Position numbers and translations under genes: made by a program. Below are positions 1 to 6,869 of a DNA stretch of 6,869 bases, in pieces (the stretch's first letter is position 1; the number at the start of each line of letters is the position of its first letter). This stretch comes from CBDUXZ01 sp965371325 [NCBI: uncultured bacterium] (GTDB lineage Bacteria > JAUYMQ01), in assembly GCA_965371325.1 (NCBI GenBank), contig CBDUXZ010000101.1:1-6869 (forward strand), in the 5' to 3' direction. The notes under the pieces were generated by a model that searched no databases, had not been told where the DNA came from, and saw only the letters and a list, made by a program, of their open reading frames with translations.

Positions 1-379
1 GGCCGATACTCTCCAGCTCGCTGGATATCGTTCGCGTCGGCTTCGCAACGAAGTCGACGGCGCCAAGCTCGAGCGCCTTGAAAACGTTCTCCCCCTCGTT
101 CCGGCCGCTGACGACGAGGACCGGCGTCGGCTGGCGGGACATAAGGACCCGCAGGAAACTGAAGCCGTCCAGTTTCGGCATCTCCAAATCGAGAGTGACA
201 AGATCCGGCTGTAGATCGAAGGCGCGGCGAAGGGCTTCCTCGCCGTCCTTCGCCGTTCCCACGACCTCGATGAAGGGCGATCGCTCTAGGAGCCTGGTGA
301 TCGTCCGCCGGTTGTAGGCAGAATCATCGACCACAAGAACCCGCACGCGATGCTTATTTCCGTTGCTCGTCGGCACCAT
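1..379 (-). CDS. cheB: CheB chemotaxis methylesterase, N-terminal receiver part (partial)
   Basis: CheB is a cytoplasmic response regulator that, once phosphorylated by CheA, removes methyl groups from (and deamidates) MCP glutamates. The gene reads from the ATG at 377-379 to the window edge, giving 126 complete codons, so only the receiver domain is present and the catalytic methylesterase domain lies outside. All receiver residues are visible: acidic pair D18-D19 in [12 protein letters not shown], phosphoacceptor D64 in [12 protein letters not shown]91 in VLVVSG, and K113 in AVDFVAKP. The segment [20 protein letters not shown] is typical of CheB at the receiver-to-linker junction and argues against a plain CheY. 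It starts 35 bases after the cheR stop, the usual cheR-cheB order. The start is the only sensible one, as no ATG, GTG or TTG lies in frame between it and the cheR end. The nearest Shine-Dalgarno-like GGAG (393-396) is about 13 bases upstream, which is rather far. Confidence 0.93.
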
Positions 380-414
380 GAAGCGCTTTCTTCTCCGGCC
401 GTTCGGGAGTCGTT

Positions 415-1317
415 TCAGAAAATTTTTCGCTTCTCCGGCTTCTGATAGACAAGATCATTCTTCAGATGCTTCAGCTCGAAGGCCTGCGTGATGTTGATAA
501 GGGATTCCGAATGCCCCAGCATGAGGTAGCCGCCCGGAACCAGCTTTCCCTCCAGGCTCTGGATCATCGACTTCTTGGTCAGGAGATCGAAATAGATGAT
601 CACGTTTCTGCAACAGATCAGATCCATCGTACGCAGGAGGCTGATCTTCGTCAGATCAACCAGGTTCAGACGACTGAAATTCACGTACTTCTTCACCTCA
701 TCGTTGATCCGCCAACGCCCGTCGACCTCCTTGAAATAGCGATCCCGGTCGGCCTTCTCGGTGACGCGAAACGATGACTTCCCGTAGACTCCCTTGCGTG
801 CGATCTGCAGGACCCGGCGATTGATATCACTCGCAAATATGTCCACGTGCCAGTCCCGAAACAACTTCGATTCGATGATGAGCATGGCCAGCGTGTAGGG
901 CTCCTCTCCGCTGGAGCAACCCGCGCTCCAGACGCGCAGCGTTCGATCTCGCCGGGCGAGCTTCGCGGCATGCAACTCGGGGAGGATCTCCTCCCTGAAG
1001 GCTTTCAGCTGGCGCTCCTCCCGGAAGAAATAGGTTTCGTTGGTCGTTACAGAATCGATAACCGCGTCCAGTTCCTCTTCCTTCTGCCGATCGTATCTGA
1101 GGAAATAGTAATAATCTCGGTAGCTGCGCAATCTGCGCGCCTTCACCAACCTTGCTACACGCTTCTCCAGAATGGGCTTGGCGTTGTCGCTGAAATAGAT
1201 TCCGCTCTTGGACTGAATGAAGTCCCGGATGAGACGGAAATCTTCGACGCCCATCTGAAGATCGCCGCCCGGCAGAAGGCTTCTCTGGAGGTCGCCTATT
1301 CTGATTCCGTCACCCAT
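415..1317 (-). CDS. cheR: CheR chemotaxis protein methyltransferase
   Basis: CheR transfers methyl groups from S-adenosylmethionine to glutamates on the cytoplasmic helices of MCPs, opposing CheB in adaptation. The 300-residue product has a full-length CheR layout. The N-terminal all-helical domain (about 24-95) holds [10 protein letters not shown] and ends in [10 protein letters not shown] (91-100). The catalytic domain has the SAM-binding motif [17 protein letters not shown] (129-145), the acidic ASDIN (162-166), [12 protein letters not shown] (232-243) and [11 protein letters not shown] (262-272). There is no TPR extension, so this is the plain form. The start at 1315-1317 is preceded by a GGTGA at 6 bases; an internal ATG (1252-1254, residue 22) would give 279 residues and also fits the family, since conservation starts only after it. 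It lies 47 bases after the HEAT gene and 35 before cheB, so it is almost certainly co-transcribed with both. Its likely substrate is the MCP encoded at the head of the same cluster. Confidence 0.96.
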
Positions 1318-1323
1318 GGGTTT

Positions 1324-1328
1324 TCACC
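1324..1328 (-). promoter_or_regulatory. Possible ribosome binding site for cheR
   Basis: On the minus strand GGTGA lies six bases before the ATG at 1315-1317. It is a modest match, but better placed than anything before the internal ATG at 1252-1254, and it is why I prefer the longer cheR start. Confidence 0.45.
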
Positions 1329-1364
1329 GGATCCCGGCCGTTGTGCCGGAGTGTCGGCCGTTCG

Positions 1365-3410
1365 TCAGTCACTCGCCGGACGACCTGCGTTCAACTTGTC
1401 AATTGCGTAGCGCATCATTTCCCGGACCGCCGTGTCGGTTTCCTTTTCCAGCACGCCGCGCAGGACCGGCAGTGTCTTCGCGATCCGGTGAATCCCGACG
1501 AACCGGATCGTCGCAAGGCGCACGTTGGGATCGGCGTGTTCGAACAGCGGTATGAGCGCGCGTACCAGCCGTTCGTCCCCGCCCCGCTGGCCGAAATGTT
1601 CGAGCGTCTGAAGCGACATCTTGATGACCTCCGGGTCGCCATGCGCGAGGGCACGCGTCAGATCGTCGAATGCGCCCTCCCCCGCCAGCCGGACAAGCGC
1701 CTCGAGACCGGTAATCATCAGTATCCCGTCGGCCTCCGAGAGAGCTTCCCTGAGAACGGCGATGGTCCCCGTATCACCGCACTCACCCAGACCCCGAAGG
1801 GCCGCGCACCGAACCCAGAGATCCTCGTCATGAAGCATCAGCGTCAGGTTCTCCACGGCGCGTGGAAGACCACTTCTCCCCCAAAGCTCGGCCGTGATAT
1901 TCCGGACTTCCGCGCTCTCGTCCGTAAGCGAAACCTGGAAATGGTTCTCGAACCGGGCGAAGCCGAGCTGGCCCAGCGCCTCGAGCGCCGCCCGGCGAAC
2001 CAGCGGACTCTCATCACGCGTGGCGTTCCGGATAGCATCTGCCCCCTCCTCCGCCCCCAGATGTCCGAGGATTCGCACCACGTTCGCTCGGGTGAACTCG
2101 CTGCCTGAGCCCGCGCGTGAAGCAACAACCTTGAGAACTTCGCGTTCATGTCCGCGGGAAAGCGAAACGAGCGACTCCACCGCTGCGTCTTCCACTTCAA
2201 GCGATGCGTCCTCGAGAAGCAACACCAGCGCCGGCAGGGCATCGATGGCCCCAATCTCGCCAAGTGCAACGGCAGCGGCAGCTTTGACTTCGGACGATTC
2301 GTCCTCGAGCGCCGATCGGAGTACGGGAATCGCCGCGTCACCGCCCAGAGATCCCAGCACCACGCACCCGGCCGCGCGGCTGGCTCCCTCCAGCCCGGAG
2401 AAATTCGCAAGCAGGCTCTCCCTTGCAGGAGCGCCGATACGCACGACGGCGTCCAGGGCGTAGGGTGCAACCGATTCATCGGTTGCCGCTTCAAGCAAGG
2501 AGAGCGTTGCGGTGCCGTCGCCCAGAAACCCGAGAATCTCGGCCATGAAGATTCGCCTGTTCAGATCGGGCGCGGAGAGCTCCTCGATGAGCGCCCCCAC
2601 GTTGATGGCCGCGACCGCGCGGCGAACCTTTTCGATCAGGGCATTCTGGAATGAGGGATCCTTCGATCGATGGAAAATTTTCATGAGTGAATCGGCTGCA
2701 GCCACCCGGATAGCCGCCGACTTATTCCCCAGGCCGGCCAGCAGGAGATCCACCGCGGGCAGCTCAGGGATGTTTCCGAGGCACCCGTAAACGGGCTTCG
2801 TCAGGAGCGGTTTCACGAGAAGGGGGGCGACTACATCGAGGGGGACGGGTTTCCCGATGCTGGCCAACGCCTTCAGCGAGTTGTACTGCAGCTGTAGATC
2901 ACCCCTACCAAGGCTTGCCAGTAGCGATTCGACCGCGTCTTCGCTTCCGATCAGCCCGAGATTTTCCGCGGCGGTCGAGCGGACGTTCTCGTTGGGATCG
3001 TCCATCGCCGCAACAAGCGCAGGGACCGCTCGGGGATCGGCGATCCCTCCAAGAACGTCGATCACGAATTTCCTGACATCCTCGTGGGGTGTTTCGACGT
3101 GCTCGAGCAGCGCCGGAACGGCCATTTCCCCCATTCGGATGAGCGTTTCAACCGACGCATTCCGGAGCCCCGCGTTGTCCTCCGAGTGCAGCCCGTGGAT
3201 CAATCCCCTGATGGCCTTCTCTGGATCGGTGAAGGTGAGGAGAGCCTCCACGGCTGTTTGCCTGACACGCCAGCTCTCATCAGCGGTGGCCCTAATCAGC
3301 AGGCGAAGCGCATTCTGCGAGGATGCCTGAAAGAGGGACTCCACCGATTCCCGCCGGGTCTCCTCATCACCGCAGTTCAGGGCCTCTTCAATTTTTTCAG
3401 ATGTCATCAT
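1365..3410 (-). CDS. HEAT-repeat scaffold protein of a chemosensory cluster
   Basis: This 681-residue protein is HEAT/PBS-lyase-type repeats from end to end, with no signal peptide, membrane segment or recognisable catalytic domain. I count about 19 units of 28-37 residues, each centred on a pattern such as DESxxVRxxAxxALGxLG. The clearest are at about 44-58, 138-155, 370-387, 466-483, 497-514, 528-545 and 625-640. Such units form a curved helical solenoid used for protein binding; the PBS-lyase name alone does not imply phycobilin chemistry. The middle (about 165-275) is less regular and includes a proline-rich stretch near 187-220. I chose the start at the ATG-ATG pair (3405-3410): the frame is open further upstream, but that extension is an out-of-frame reading of the preceding gene, is compositionally unlike HEAT repeats, and the repeats begin just after this start. 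The start overlaps the preceding gene by 14 bases, pointing to translational coupling. A likely role is scaffold or output partner of the che system, as reported for Cpc7 of M. xanthus Che7; the function here is inference. Confidence 0.9.
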   Translation of the reverse strand: MMTSEKIEEALNCGDEETRRESVESLFQASSQNALRLLIRATADESWRVRQTAVEALLTFTDPEKAIRGLIHGLHSEDNAGLRNASVETLIRMGEMAVPALLEHVETPHEDVRKFVIDVLGGIADPRAVPALVAAMDDPNENVRSTAAENLGLIGSEDAVESLLASLGRGDLQLQYNSLKALASIGKPVPLDVVAPLLVKPLLTKPVYGCLGNIPELPAVDLLLAGLGNKSAAIRVAAADSLMKIFHRSKDPSFQNALIEKVRRAVAAINVGALIEELSAPDLNRRIFMAEILGFLGDGTATLSLLEAATDESVAPYALDAVVRIGAPARESLLANFSGLEGASRAAGCVVLGSLGGDAAIPVLRSALEDESSEVKAAAAVALGEIGAIDALPALVLLLEDASLEVEDAAVESLVSLSRGHEREVLKVVASRAGSGSEFTRANVVRILGHLGAEEGADAIRNATRDESPLVRRAALEALGQLGFARFENHFQVSLTDESAEVRNITAELWGRSGLPRAVENLTLMLHDEDLWVRCAALRGLGECGDTGTIAVLREALSEADGILMITGLEALVRLAGEGAFDDLTRALAHGDPEVIKMSLQTLEHFGQRGGDERLVRALIPLFEHADPNVRLATIRFVGIHRIAKTLPVLRGVLEKETDTAVREMMRYAIDKLNAGRPASD
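3397..3410 (-). promoter_or_regulatory. 14-base stop/start overlap coupling the zinc-ribbon and HEAT genes
   Basis: The TGA of the zinc-ribbon gene (3397-3399) lies downstream of the HEAT ATG-ATG pair (3405-3410), which falls inside the last codons of the first gene (GATGATGAC). A G-run (3417-3421) six bases before the first ATG could serve as a weak ribosome site. Overlap of this kind usually means the second gene is translated by ribosomes finishing the first, keeping the two products in fixed proportion. Confidence 0.7.
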
Positions 3411-4485
3411 CCCCGACCCCCGTGTCGGCGAAGAAATCGCCACCGTGCCGGGCGCCTTCGTCGCTCCCGGGAACGGTGCCTTCGCCTTTAAGATCAGATA
3501 AGCCGAGCTCGCGGCTCTTCTTCTCGGAGGCAGCGTCCAGCGCCTCTCGAATGAAATCACACGCGTCGACCACGGGCGGTTTGATTCGCCTCCGAAAGAG
3601 CTTGTATCCCTCTTCCAGCTCGTCGCGCACAAGGTTCGCAAGCTGACCCGAACGGATTCCCTCCTCGAACCTGTCAGGATTGTATAGAGCGATATCGCTC
3701 ACGATGATTCGCGCGAGCCTGCACGCCCGTTCGCGCTCTTCCGCGTGCGGATCATCAACCGGGGTCTCTACGTGAGGCGGTTCCTCGACCCGGGTTTGCG
3801 AATGCGCTCCGGGATCCTCCTCGAACGGGGACGATGACCGGACAGGTGGCCACGATGACTCTACACGGCCGGATTCCCCAGGTGCCGGTTGTGCTTCGCC
3901 TCCCCCTTCTTCGTCGTCGCGTCTTTCCGGAGAGCCCGACAGGAGACGGTGCAGTTTTGCCACCAGGGCTTCCCTGATCTCCCGTTCCCCCAGCACGTCG
4001 TCGGCCCCGTAAAGGTTCTCGGCCGTCCGTTTGTAACGGCCCTGGTTGTGGGTTGCCTCAACCAGGAGAACTTTTATGTTGCAGAGGCTCTCGTTCCTTT
4101 TCAGGAACTCGCAGATTTCAAACCCGTACATCTTGGGAAGGGCCGCGTCGATTACCGCCACCGCCGGGTGCTCGCGCTGAATCTTCATAAGCGCGTCGAC
4201 CCCGTCCTGCGAAGTCACTACCTCGAAGTTCTCTTTCTCGAGGAGCCCGCTCATCGTGGCGCAGACAGTGTGTTTCGCATGAGCGACGAGAATTCGCGGT
4301 CTGCTCCCGCCGGCGGTCGAACCGGCGACCGCAGCGGGTGCCGAGGCAGCCGGGCTCTCGACCACCCGCTTCCTGACGGCGAAAAGGCTCTGGCACCGGG
4401 CGCAACGAAGGCGGACCCCGGGGGGCTTTATCTTCGTCTCGTCAATCCTGAACTTCGCCCTGCAAGAGGGGCACGCAACTATCAT
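3397..4485 (-). CDS. Zinc-ribbon protein with degenerate response-regulator receiver domain
   Basis: The 362-residue protein has four parts. Residues 1-38 are an MJ0042-type zinc ribbon with C5-x2-C8 and C28-x2-C31, followed by an Ala/Pro linker. Residues 63-183 match a CheY-like receiver: the first strand RILVAH, phosphoacceptor D113 in AVIDAALPKMYGFEI, and GADDVLGERE near the end. Residues 184-248 are an acidic, Pro/Ser/Glu-rich and probably disordered linker. Residues 249-325 form a charged, predicted helical region (RLARIIVSDIALYNPDRFEE onward) that I cannot assign to a named domain, with a short acidic tail ending VGDDDI. The receiver keeps D113 but has H69-A70 for the acidic pair, E143 for the Thr/Ser and E167-R168 for the usual Lys-Pro, so it probably does not phosphorylate normally. 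A good Shine-Dalgarno supports the start. It sits between the MCP and the HEAT gene, so a role in signal output or array assembly is likely but unproven. Confidence 0.9.
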   Translation of the reverse strand: MIVACPSCRAKFRIDETKIKPPGVRLRCARCQSLFAVRKRVVESPAASAPAAVAGSTAGGSRPRILVAHAKHTVCATMSGLLEKENFEVVTSQDGVDALMKIQREHPAVAVIDAALPKMYGFEICEFLKRNESLCNIKVLLVEATHNQGRYKRTAENLYGADDVLGEREIREALVAKLHRLLSGSPERRDDEEGGGEAQPAPGESGRVESSWPPVRSSSPFEEDPGAHSQTRVEEPPHVETPVDDPHAEERERACRLARIIVSDIALYNPDRFEEGIRSGQLANLVRDELEEGYKLFRRRIKPPVVDACDFIREALDAASEKKSRELGLSDLKGEGTVPGSDEGARHGGDFFADTGVGDDDI

Positions 4486-4490
4486 TTCAA

Positions 4491-4495
4491 TCCTC
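4491..4495 (-). promoter_or_regulatory. Shine-Dalgarno for the zinc-ribbon receiver gene
   Basis: On the minus strand GAGGA lies five bases before the ATG at 4483-4485 (GAGGATTGAAATG). It fixes the start so that the zinc ribbon begins at the second residue. It sits inside the 52-base gap after the MCP stop, which shows no T-rich hairpin terminator, so read-through from the MCP is expected. Confidence 0.75.
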
Positions 4496-4537
4496 GGCTT
4501 GAAAGTTCCCGATGTCAGGCAATTCGCCCATTCAGAA

Positions 4538-6869
4538 TCATGACGAAGGCTTTACCTTATGAACCGGCGGATCAGCCGTGTCGGGATCGCCATTGTCCCG
4601 ATCCTTCCTGAGCTGGAATCGGTTTACCTCTCTTTTGAGAACGCTGGCCTGGGTCACCATTCCCTTCACGACCCCCGACATCTTTCCAGCCGCATCCTGG
4701 TTTCTTTCGGCCCGCTCGCGAATGTGATCGAGGGCCTCCACGGCCTGCTCCGTGCCATGGCGCTGCTCCTGAATTGCGCCGTTAATTTGCTGGACCATGT
4801 CACGGATGTTTTCAATGCTGGCCGTTATACGTCCAGAGCCGCGCGCCTGTTCATGGATAGTTCCCTTTACCTGCTGTGCGACGTCTCGCATAGATATGGA
4901 TGAGGCCATGACCTGATCCGATCCGCGAGACTGCTCCTCCATCGCTCCGCGAATCTGTGAGACCAGCTCCCGGACGTGCTCCATTGCAACGACAACCGAC
5001 TGGGAGCCCTTCGCCTGTTCGGTGGCGGCCTGGGCAATCTCGCCGATCATCTCGCCCGAACTGCGGGCGCTGGCCATGATCTCTTCAAGGGCCACCCCTG
5101 CCTCGCGCGAGAGGTGCTGGCCTTCGGCCACCATTTCACCGCCGCGGCAGACGGCCGAGATTGCGTTCTCAGACTCGTCCTGCACCGCCTTGATCACCTT
5201 CCCGATCTCCTTCGTGCTCGCGCCGACGCGATCCGCGAGATCCTTTATCTCGTCCGCCACCACCGAGAATCCACGGCCGTGCTCGCCGGCCTGTGCGGCA
5301 ATGATGGCCGCGTTCAGGGCCAGCAGATTTGTCTCCTCCGCCACATCGTCAATCACGTCGAGAATTTCGCCAATCCCCTCGGCCCGGCGCCCAAGCGAGG
5401 CGATGACCTGCTGGGCCTCCTCGGAAGAGGACCGAATCGCTTCGATACCACTGATCGTTGCAAGCACCCGCTCGGTCCCCGTTTCTGCAGCCTTGACCAC
5501 CTCGAGGGACAGGCGGCGCGAATCGATGGCGTTCTCCCCCACCTGCTTCACGGAAGCGGCCATCTCCTCCATGGAAGCGCCTGTCGCCTCAGCCACTTCG
5601 GACAGTCCCTCGACGTTTCGGGTCACTTCGCGGATGACTCCGGTCATCTCCTCCATGCTCGAGACCGAATCGTCGACCGAGCGGCTGAGGCTCTCCATGT
5701 TTCCGCTCACTTCCTCAACCGTCGCTCCCATTTCAAGAATGGAGCTCGAAGATTCCTCGGCTGATACGCTCAGATGCTCCGTGTGCTCGGCGATCCCGCG
5801 GATCGAGGCGTTGATCTGCTCGAACACGCTTGTGGCCTCCAGCACACTGGAGTTCTGCTCGTCGCTTGCAACTGCGACCGCCTGGGAGACGGCCGACACC
5901 TCGGAACTCATTTTTTCCACGCCATCACTCGTTGTCAGGACATGGAGAAACATCTTGCGCAGACGGCGCGACATGTCCGAAAGAGAATGCGCCAGCTCCC
6001 CCAGTTCGTCTTCGCTCTCCACGCTCAGGGTAGTACCGAGATCACCCAGCGCTACGCGCCTGGACCACTGCGCCATGCTCCGCAGGGCGTTGTTAACGTC
6101 ATTGGCTGCAAGAACCGCCAGCCCCATGGCGACGAACAGGCTTAACAGAAGCTGAATTGCGAGTATCCGATGCAGACCTGATTTCTGGCCCTTCGTAAGG
6201 CCGGTGGAAGCCGTCAGCGCCAGGTGCCATCCCTTGCCCGGCACCTGGTCTTCGAGGATCACATCCCCCGGGCCCAAATCTTCTCCCGGCCCGCGATTCA
6301 AGGTTGGCAAGCCCCGGAAACCGGTCCTCTCGGAGCTCTCTTCACCCGCGAAGGCAAGCTGCTTCCCCCCGGCGTCAAAAAGCGCAACGGCGTAATCGGG
6401 AGCCAGGCCGGCCCCTCGCGCGATCGCGCCCAGGTCCACGAGCCCGGCATCCTCGAAAGGAACCCTCGAAAGCTCGCTCCGGATGGAATCGAAAACGGGA
6501 CGTGAAGCTTCAATCCTGGTTCTTTCCACCACCCTCAGCGTCTGCTCGTAGAACATCAGGGCAGAGAAGGCCAGCGTGACGAAAACCAGCGACACGAATG
6601 TTGCAAGAAGCTTCGTGCGAAGGGTGACCCGCTTCACGTTCTTCGCGATATCCTCCACGTCATGGTAGGTCTGGAACGACTCCCGCACAGGACAGAGGAT
6701 TCGCTTCGATACGTGGAAGAGAAAGAAACTTGAAAGTGTGCCGGAGCTTAGTCCGGCGAAGCAGATCTTGAAAAAGCTGAAGCCGGAGACGCCCTGGAAA
6801 AGTACCATGTAGGAGCCGACCAGCAATGTCCCCGCCGTCCAGAAGCCCAAACCCTGGAAGAAGAGGAAT
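4538..6869 (-). CDS. Methyl-accepting chemotaxis protein with long signalling domain (5' partial)
   Basis: This is a membrane chemoreceptor. Reading from the TTG at 6848-6850 gives 770 residues, but the frame stays open to the edge (FLFFQG precedes), there is no ribosome site before that TTG, and a hydrophobic segment is cut, so the true start lies beyond the window. With TTG as residue 1, hydrophobic segments lie at about 1-20, 25-47, 80-100 and 228-250. Residues 101-225 form a small extracytoplasmic region, possibly a single-Cache or PAS-like fold ([27 protein letters not shown]). A HAMP domain follows (about 251-303, with [12 protein letters not shown]) but lacks the usual early proline. 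The signalling hairpin runs from about 304 to 735, with its tip near [20 protein letters not shown] (506-525). Glu pairs in methylation-type context lie on both helices (for example E379-E380, E428-E429, E639-Q640). No NWETF-like CheR-tethering tail is present. It is the furthest upstream gene visible in the operon. Confidence 0.95.
4688..5023 (-). repeat. Four tandem 28-residue repeats in the MCP C-terminal helix
   Basis: Within the MCP, residues 610-637, 638-665, 666-693 and 694-721 align as four units of exactly 28 residues (four heptads each). The shared pattern is EQ-x-[KR]-G-[ST] near the start, an [ILMV]-R-[DE] or similar near the middle, and G-[AT]-[MI] at the end ([30 protein letters not shown]). 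The fourth unit diverges most in its second half. Three of the unit junctions fit the MCP methylation-site consensus. The repeat is a protein-level pattern; the underlying DNA is not near-identical. Confidence 0.75.

Follow-up and report, generated by a model that had tools for sequence, protein, structure and literature searches.

The Che8 chemosensory system of Myxococcus xanthus is tabulated as MXAN_4759 (CheY8b), 4758 (CheA8), 4757 and 4756 (CheW8b and CheW8a), 4753 (CheR8), 4752 (CheB8) and 4751 (CheY8a), and all three che tables of that source omit MXAN_4754 and MXAN_4755 (PMC3945109). Che7, which groups with Che8 and Dif, is tabulated there as 6965 (CheY7), 6964 (CheA7), 6963 (CheW7), 6962 (Mcp7), 6960 (CheR7) and 6959 (CheB7), with 6961 unlisted (PMC3945109). 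According to a review, the M. xanthus HEAT-repeat protein Cpc7 interacts with CheY7 (PMC11514114). The che8 genes are described as conserved in Anaeromyxobacter dehalogenans and Geobacter sulfurreducens (PMC2330069), and Che8 of Corallococcus coralloides is described as lacking a methyl-accepting chemotaxis protein (MCP; PMC6194562). The beta group of Geobacter is likewise defined as having no mcp gene, and a preliminary, unpublished remark by the authors holds that its knockouts affect the matrix (PMC2577667); the definition was later repeated (PMC8235581). As of 2022, the function of Che8 was given as not identified, and CheA8 and CheA7 were implicated in the phosphorylation of MXAN_4468 (PMC9040617). 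Here we compare these systems with a locus from an uncultured bacterium, the 6,869-nucleotide stretch of contig CBDUXZ010000101.1 (the window), which encodes an MCP, a protein combining a zinc ribbon with a receiver domain (ZnRR), a HEAT-repeat protein, CheR and CheB.

The five genes lie on the minus strand throughout, in the order MCP, ZnRR, HEAT, cheR, cheB, with 52 bases between MCP and ZnRR, 47 between HEAT and cheR, 35 between cheR and cheB, and ZnRR overlapping HEAT by 14 bases. Open reading frame (ORF) coordinates and Pfam matches bear out the co-directional run with gaps of at most 52 bases and one overlap that an earlier interpretation of the window (the sequence-only reading) had described. 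Pfam also agrees with its view of a HEAT-bearing chemosensory system, as the MCP matches MCPsignal (5.3e-40) and HAMP (1e-09), ZnRR matches Zn_ribbon_4 (3.2e-13) and Response_reg (1.1e-10), the HEAT protein matches HEAT_2 (4.3e-78), CheR matches CheR (4.3e-56) and the truncated CheB matches Response_reg (1.6e-24). The top model match of this CheB receiver is CheB (PRK00742; 5.6e-37), which falls below the model's cut-off because the window holds only the receiver part of the protein. We interpret the window as the central part of a chemosensory operon that is Che8-like and has a receptor gene inside it, in which ZnRR, HEAT and CheR would constitute an adaptation-control module, a reading to which we attach about even confidence.

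Conservation of gene order was assessed in 25 genomes whose ZnRR is linked to che genes, in phyla as grouped by the search tool: G001, G015, G021, G041, G045 and G050; G060-G067 (G021's phylum); G552 and G553; and nine genomes of G029's phylum, presumably Myxococcota (G078, G080, G249, G250, G252, G255, G256, G259 and G260). HEAT follows ZnRR in 24/24 loci where the contig reaches (that of G552 ends in ZnRR; the ZnRR gene of G041 spans two contigs). CheR follows HEAT in 21/21, a count that leaves out G061, G063 and G260, whose contigs end too early, beside G552. The ZnRR-HEAT-CheR order is retained in at least five phyla. The adjacency of ZnRR and HEAT, on which the sequence-only reading had staked its proposal, is thus kept across genomes, and because other genomes repeat this gene order, the arrangement in the window is not a matter of chance. 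A one-genome oddity is ruled out by matches across G021's, G029's and G041's phyla.

The sequence-only reading had also proposed looking for cheA, cheW and cheY nearby, and the relatives have all three. CheA lies upstream in 20/20 loci reaching that far and is followed by an AAA ATPase in 13 of these 20, while a CheY precedes CheA in 15 of the 16 loci running past it. Further upstream of this CheY and CheA, a DUF4388-receiver gene is found in 11/14 loci reaching it (for example, L043:17372-19171 and L110:4038-6269). The gene directly before ZnRR is an MCP in 13/25 relatives and a CheW in 12/25. On the other side of the operon, a GAF gene follows CheB in 12 of the 18 loci that show it or extend at least 2 kb past CheB, and the next gene is a CheY in 11 of these 12; no GAF gene was found behind CheB in the loci of G021's phylum that extend past CheB.

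ZnRR does not have the residue set of a functional receiver (acidic pair, acceptor Asp, Thr/Ser and Lys). In an alignment of 24 rows, the acceptor Asp is retained in 24/24, but both metal-binding acids of the pocket occur together in 0/24, and a His occupies the first acid position in 22/24. The Thr/Ser position holds Ala in 21/24 and Thr or Ser in none (one row has a gap), and the Lys is retained in 10/24. Of all these residues, the ZnRR of the window keeps only the acceptor, Asp113. In comparison, the catalytic residues are complete in 7/7 operon CheYs chosen for alignment. The term pseudo-receiver used by the sequence-only reading is therefore apt (acceptor Asp 24/24, acidic pair 0/24). Because the Asp and the His are so consistently retained, the pocket appears conserved rather than decayed, and the alignment indicates that the family is a conserved degenerate receiver and not a decayed gene. 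The zinc-ribbon cysteines are present in 23/24 rows and missing only from L111, a sequence with an uncertain start; by eye, a motif resembling ARxIVSDIALYN, varied in places, was recognized near the C-terminus in 24/24. The C-terminal part is possibly an unnamed small domain; it matches short ORFs (90-98 residues) elsewhere in several genomes (G001:C585, G021:C67, G034:C3).

The sequence-only reading had further suggested that ZnRR may stand in place of a CheY-type partner of the HEAT protein or be added to it. A replacement of CheY is not supported, since the same operons contain CheYs, one before CheA and, in 11 loci, another after the GAF gene, with all seven that were checked being canonical. 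Judged by gene content, ZnRR accompanies the operon CheYs and does not replace them.

Evidence on the partner of the HEAT protein comes from natural fusions. In 6/21 genomes (G050, G252, G249, G250, G041 and G553), HEAT and CheR share one open frame, which in G050 encodes 912 residues. Both domains were identified by Pfam in G050, G252, G249 and G250, and by tblastn and reading of the frame in G041 and G553; the G041 frame reads through 19 consecutive N within the HEAT region, away from the joint. In a CheR tree of one outgroup and 20 rows (the window plus 19 loci, the two partial ones among the 21 being omitted), the fused rows fall at three places, with starred branches that leave a single origin possible. 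Fusion of neighboring genes suggests a working contact between HEAT and CheR. The sequence-only reading had supposed a CheY-type partner for the HEAT protein; the genome evidence favors CheR instead, a partner that it had not named, and suggests CheR as the best supported one.

The HEAT protein itself was modeled from two sequences as all-helical, with 40 helices and no added domain (mean predicted local distance difference test (pLDDT) score 87.7, predicted TM-score 0.62). A fold search with this model was uninformative on function, the 50 matches listed being designed or eukaryotic solenoids with TM-scores of at most 0.51. A role as a phycobilin lyase was rejected, since the matches to NblB, CpcF and CpcE are below the cut-offs and were taken to reflect shared repeats.

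In the adaptation-control reading, the receptor, CheW and CheA would form the array, and CheA would phosphorylate the canonical CheYs and CheB. The HEAT protein would be an extended scaffold, holding CheR or gating it; it would thereby set receptor methylation, and thus adaptation, a role comparable to that of the TPR part of CheR-TPR fusions. Cpc7 with CheY7 (PMC11514114) and the archaeal HEAT_PBS protein OE2401F are precedents for HEAT proteins that bind chemosensory proteins. ZnRR, whose usual phosphorylation is unlikely, would dock on HEAT as a phosphorylation-independent adaptor, and its zinc ribbon may provide a second contact or input. Instead of a flagellar switch, the output would address type IV pili, matrix or gene expression. 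A more specific version, which we consider possible but rather doubtful, is that a zinc-binding, non-phosphorylated ZnRR sets methylation by acting through HEAT on CheR; the array would then have a second input (metal or redox state) independent of CheA phosphorylation, and the module would be an undescribed one.

Flagellar and pilus genes, a further check proposed by the sequence-only reading, were sought in 23 operon-bearing genomes (G552 and G553 were left out), many of them drafts of unstated completeness. FliM was found in 8/23 (G080, G249, G250, G252, G255, G256, G259 and G260, all in G029's phylum), with best scores of 42-61 bits against a Pfam cut-off of 27, and not in the other 15, including all nine of G021's phylum. 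PilT exceeds its cut-off in 23/23. Together, these counts make a flagellar output unlikely for most relatives. This leaves type IV pili, matrix or gene expression as outputs and, by analogy with the relatives, the output may also be non-flagellar in the window's own genome. The FliM-domain matches sit in frames of 424-492 residues, which could be flagellar or secretion-system proteins.

Several observations weigh against the adaptation-control reading. HEAT and CheR are separate genes in 15/21 genomes, and two of the CheR rows from fusions, L044 and L115, form long branches. The precedent of Cpc7 favors a CheY over CheR as the partner of a HEAT protein (PMC11514114). The Che8 tables, which take operon receivers as the CheY set, place none at MXAN_4754 or MXAN_4755 (PMC3945109); a possible reason is that such a receiver is too degenerate to score, as the ZnRR receiver of L110 reaches 29.3 bits against a cut-off of 30.2. 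The AlphaFold model of ZnRR is poor (mean pLDDT 45, with 72-78 for the first 40 residues), so the receiver fold is without structural support from it. An orphan ZnRR in G076 (L114) stands in a 17 kb contig without che genes, and no interaction or phenotype was found reported for ZnRR or for a Che8 HEAT protein. Finally, FliM matches above the Pfam cut-off occur in 8/9 tested operon genomes of G029's phylum. The suggestion of the sequence-only reading that the output is other than flagellar holds as likely for most relatives tested.

The precedent of Cpc7 also underlies a different view, in which HEAT and ZnRR form an output branch: phospho-CheY would bind HEAT in the way CheY7 binds Cpc7, and ZnRR, as a partner that either competes or cooperates, would relay the signal. 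Besides the reported Cpc7-CheY7 interaction (PMC11514114), this view can draw on the canonical CheYs of the operon, on the single unlisted gene that Che7 has, by its tags, between the MCP and CheR7 (PMC3945109), and on Halobacterium salinarum, where the HEAT_PBS protein OE2401F, reported to bind CheD and the CheF protein OE2402F, stands between the Che system and the archaeal flagellum. The six fusions argue otherwise, as all are to CheR and none to CheY, and so does the position of HEAT next to cheR in every reachable locus (21/21); we therefore regard an output branch as unlikely.

Two other accounts give ZnRR a different standing. It might be a true phospho-receiver with unusual metal chemistry, in which His replaces an acid, and thus a direct target of CheA. 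The invariant acceptor Asp and the prevalent His (22/24) fit such chemistry, but the loss of the acidic pair and of Thr/Ser from all rows (one with a gap) and of Lys from all but 10/24 makes it quite improbable. Alternatively, the ZnRR and HEAT genes might be co-transcribed passengers outside the pathway. No functional data were found for either gene, and one ZnRR is an orphan (L114), as this would allow; yet passengers would hardly keep their order in at least five phyla or be fused to CheR in six genomes, and we consider this very improbable.

The relatives were collected in several searches. Scanning genomes with ZnRR yielded four loci: a clear relative, L001, which comes from a metagenome-assembled genome of a Deltaproteobacteria bacterium and is 58% identical across the full protein, and three partial matches (27-28% identity). 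L001 encodes CheW, MCP, ZnRR, HEAT, CheR, CheB, a GAF protein and CheY. In 59 genomes related to G001, itself included, ZnRR had some match in 54, the listed matches being mostly to the receiver; of the seven genomes fetched, six carry the operon (G001, G015, G021, G041, G045 and G050) and G013 has no such operon within the stretch read. In a ZnRR profile search, matching genomes numbered 1/1 in G001's phylum, 9/9 in G021's, 3/3 in G041's, 1/2 in G045's and 21/195 in G029's (at most 11 candidates scored per genome). None of 291 matched in G048's phylum at E 1e-30, which shows little, with at most seven candidates scored per genome and no positive control. Because so few candidates were scored, orthologues were possibly missed in the phyla of G029 and G048. 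Among 11 of the 21 matching genomes of G029's phylum that were inspected, nine have the operon and two, G076 and G070, do not. No che homologue was found around the ZnRR match of G070, nor in the 17 kb contig of the G076 orphan (L114:8244-9056, minus strand), which adjoins TPR and SpoU-methylase genes. In G029 itself, where 195 candidates were returned and 11 of them scored, ZnRR found no match at 1e-25, and eight stretches contained no ZnRR-HEAT pair, one of them (L127) having another che cluster. GltJ exceeded its cut-off in G029 only (1/16), which is the basis for presuming that its phylum is Myxococcota. A plasmid search with ZnRR returned 36 records. All of them cover less than 80% of the query, and the 15 listed match the receiver only. 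A literature search, largely without subscription papers, found neither ZnRR nor a HEAT protein of Che8 described. GSU2216 and GSU2217 are presumably HEAT and zinc-finger/receiver genes; a search with these tags and with MXAN_4754/4755 found no paper.

The features of the window are collected in Table 1. The MCP of the window is 68% identical over 762 residues to that of L001 (867 residues). A simple hydropathy scan gave six transmembrane stretches in the MCP of L001 (361-2961) and in the first MCP of L045 (175-2679), and two in each of the other four full-length MCPs scanned. Paired adjacent MCP genes occur in G015 and G045 (L045:175-4798; L046:9638-14078), and the G045 MCP adjoining ZnRR has an MCPsignal match of 51.5 bits and no HAMP match.

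Table 1. Genes and domains of the window, with the evidence for each.
Feature	Coordinates	Strand	Evidence
MCP chemoreceptor with a HAMP and an MCP signalling domain; truncated 5' at the window edge	4538..6868	-	ORF, Pfam
ZnRR, 362 residues: zinc ribbon, degenerate receiver and conserved C-terminal motif	3397..4485	-	ORF, Pfam, alignment
MJ0042-type zinc ribbon of ZnRR, residues 1-37	4375..4485	-	Pfam, alignment
Degenerate receiver of ZnRR, residues 65-168; Asp113 acceptor retained	3982..4293	-	Pfam, alignment
Conserved C-terminal motif of ZnRR, residues 253-270; unmatched in Pfam	3676..3729	-	alignment
HEAT-repeat protein, 681 residues, predicted all-helical solenoid	1365..3410	-	ORF, Pfam, structure model
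cheR, receptor methyltransferase	415..1317	-	ORF, Pfam
cheB, truncated at the window edge to its receiver part	2..379	-	ORF, Pfam

Set against the described systems, the locus comes close to Che8. The order CheY-CheA-CheW-CheW-two genes-CheR-CheB is found, as an order only, in the MCP-less loci L107, L108, L110, L111 and L113, and the Che8 tags from CheY to CheB agree with L110, again in order only, as the tag numbers come without strands or sequences. In the relatives, a GAF gene stands between CheB and the following CheY, whereas Che8 has no free tag for one. The relatives have cheA, cheW, cheB and cheR in one cluster; the window shows only cheR and part of cheB. Che8 and the Geobacter beta group have no mcp in the cluster, whereas the window has an MCP directly before ZnRR, and because of this MCP we file it as an MCP-bearing relative, not a member, of the Che8/Geobacter beta group. 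In Geobacter, GSU2220 (CheW), GSU2221 (ATPase) and GSU2222 (CheA) belong to Esn, whose mutants grow poorly on electrodes and whose EsnA is encoded elsewhere (PMC5585712). The three tags are consecutive, as are the corresponding genes in L043 and L046, and Esn is presumably a beta-group cluster; non-flagellar roles are indicated for both in the sources cited.

Che7, similar to the window, has its MCP inside the operon and, through Cpc7, a HEAT protein tied to a chemosensory system. It has one CheW and one unlisted gene, before CheR7, compared with two of each in Che8, and the available text of its sources mentions no zinc-ribbon receiver. By these tag orders, the window resembles Che8 in its two genes before CheR and Che7 in its MCP. 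The sequence-only reading had suggested that the system may be related to but distinct from Che7; the window shares with Che7 the MCP and a gene before CheR, and with Che8 the presence of two genes before CheR. The CheR-TPR fusions of the FrzF and WspC type, described mostly from non-flagellar clusters, also join a helical repeat to CheR; here HEAT replaces TPR, is N-terminal to CheR and is more often a separate gene. Three results are the most useful: HEAT and CheR occur naturally fused, the receiver of ZnRR is consistently degenerate, and gene order links the locus to Che8, to Che7 and, less surely, to Esn. If HEAT is a CheR partner and ZnRR its non-phosphorylated regulator, two unlisted parts of such pathways would be directly testable in model bacteria. 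The system thus belongs to a known kind; the variant seen here carries an MCP, and two of its parts, ZnRR and HEAT, are conserved.

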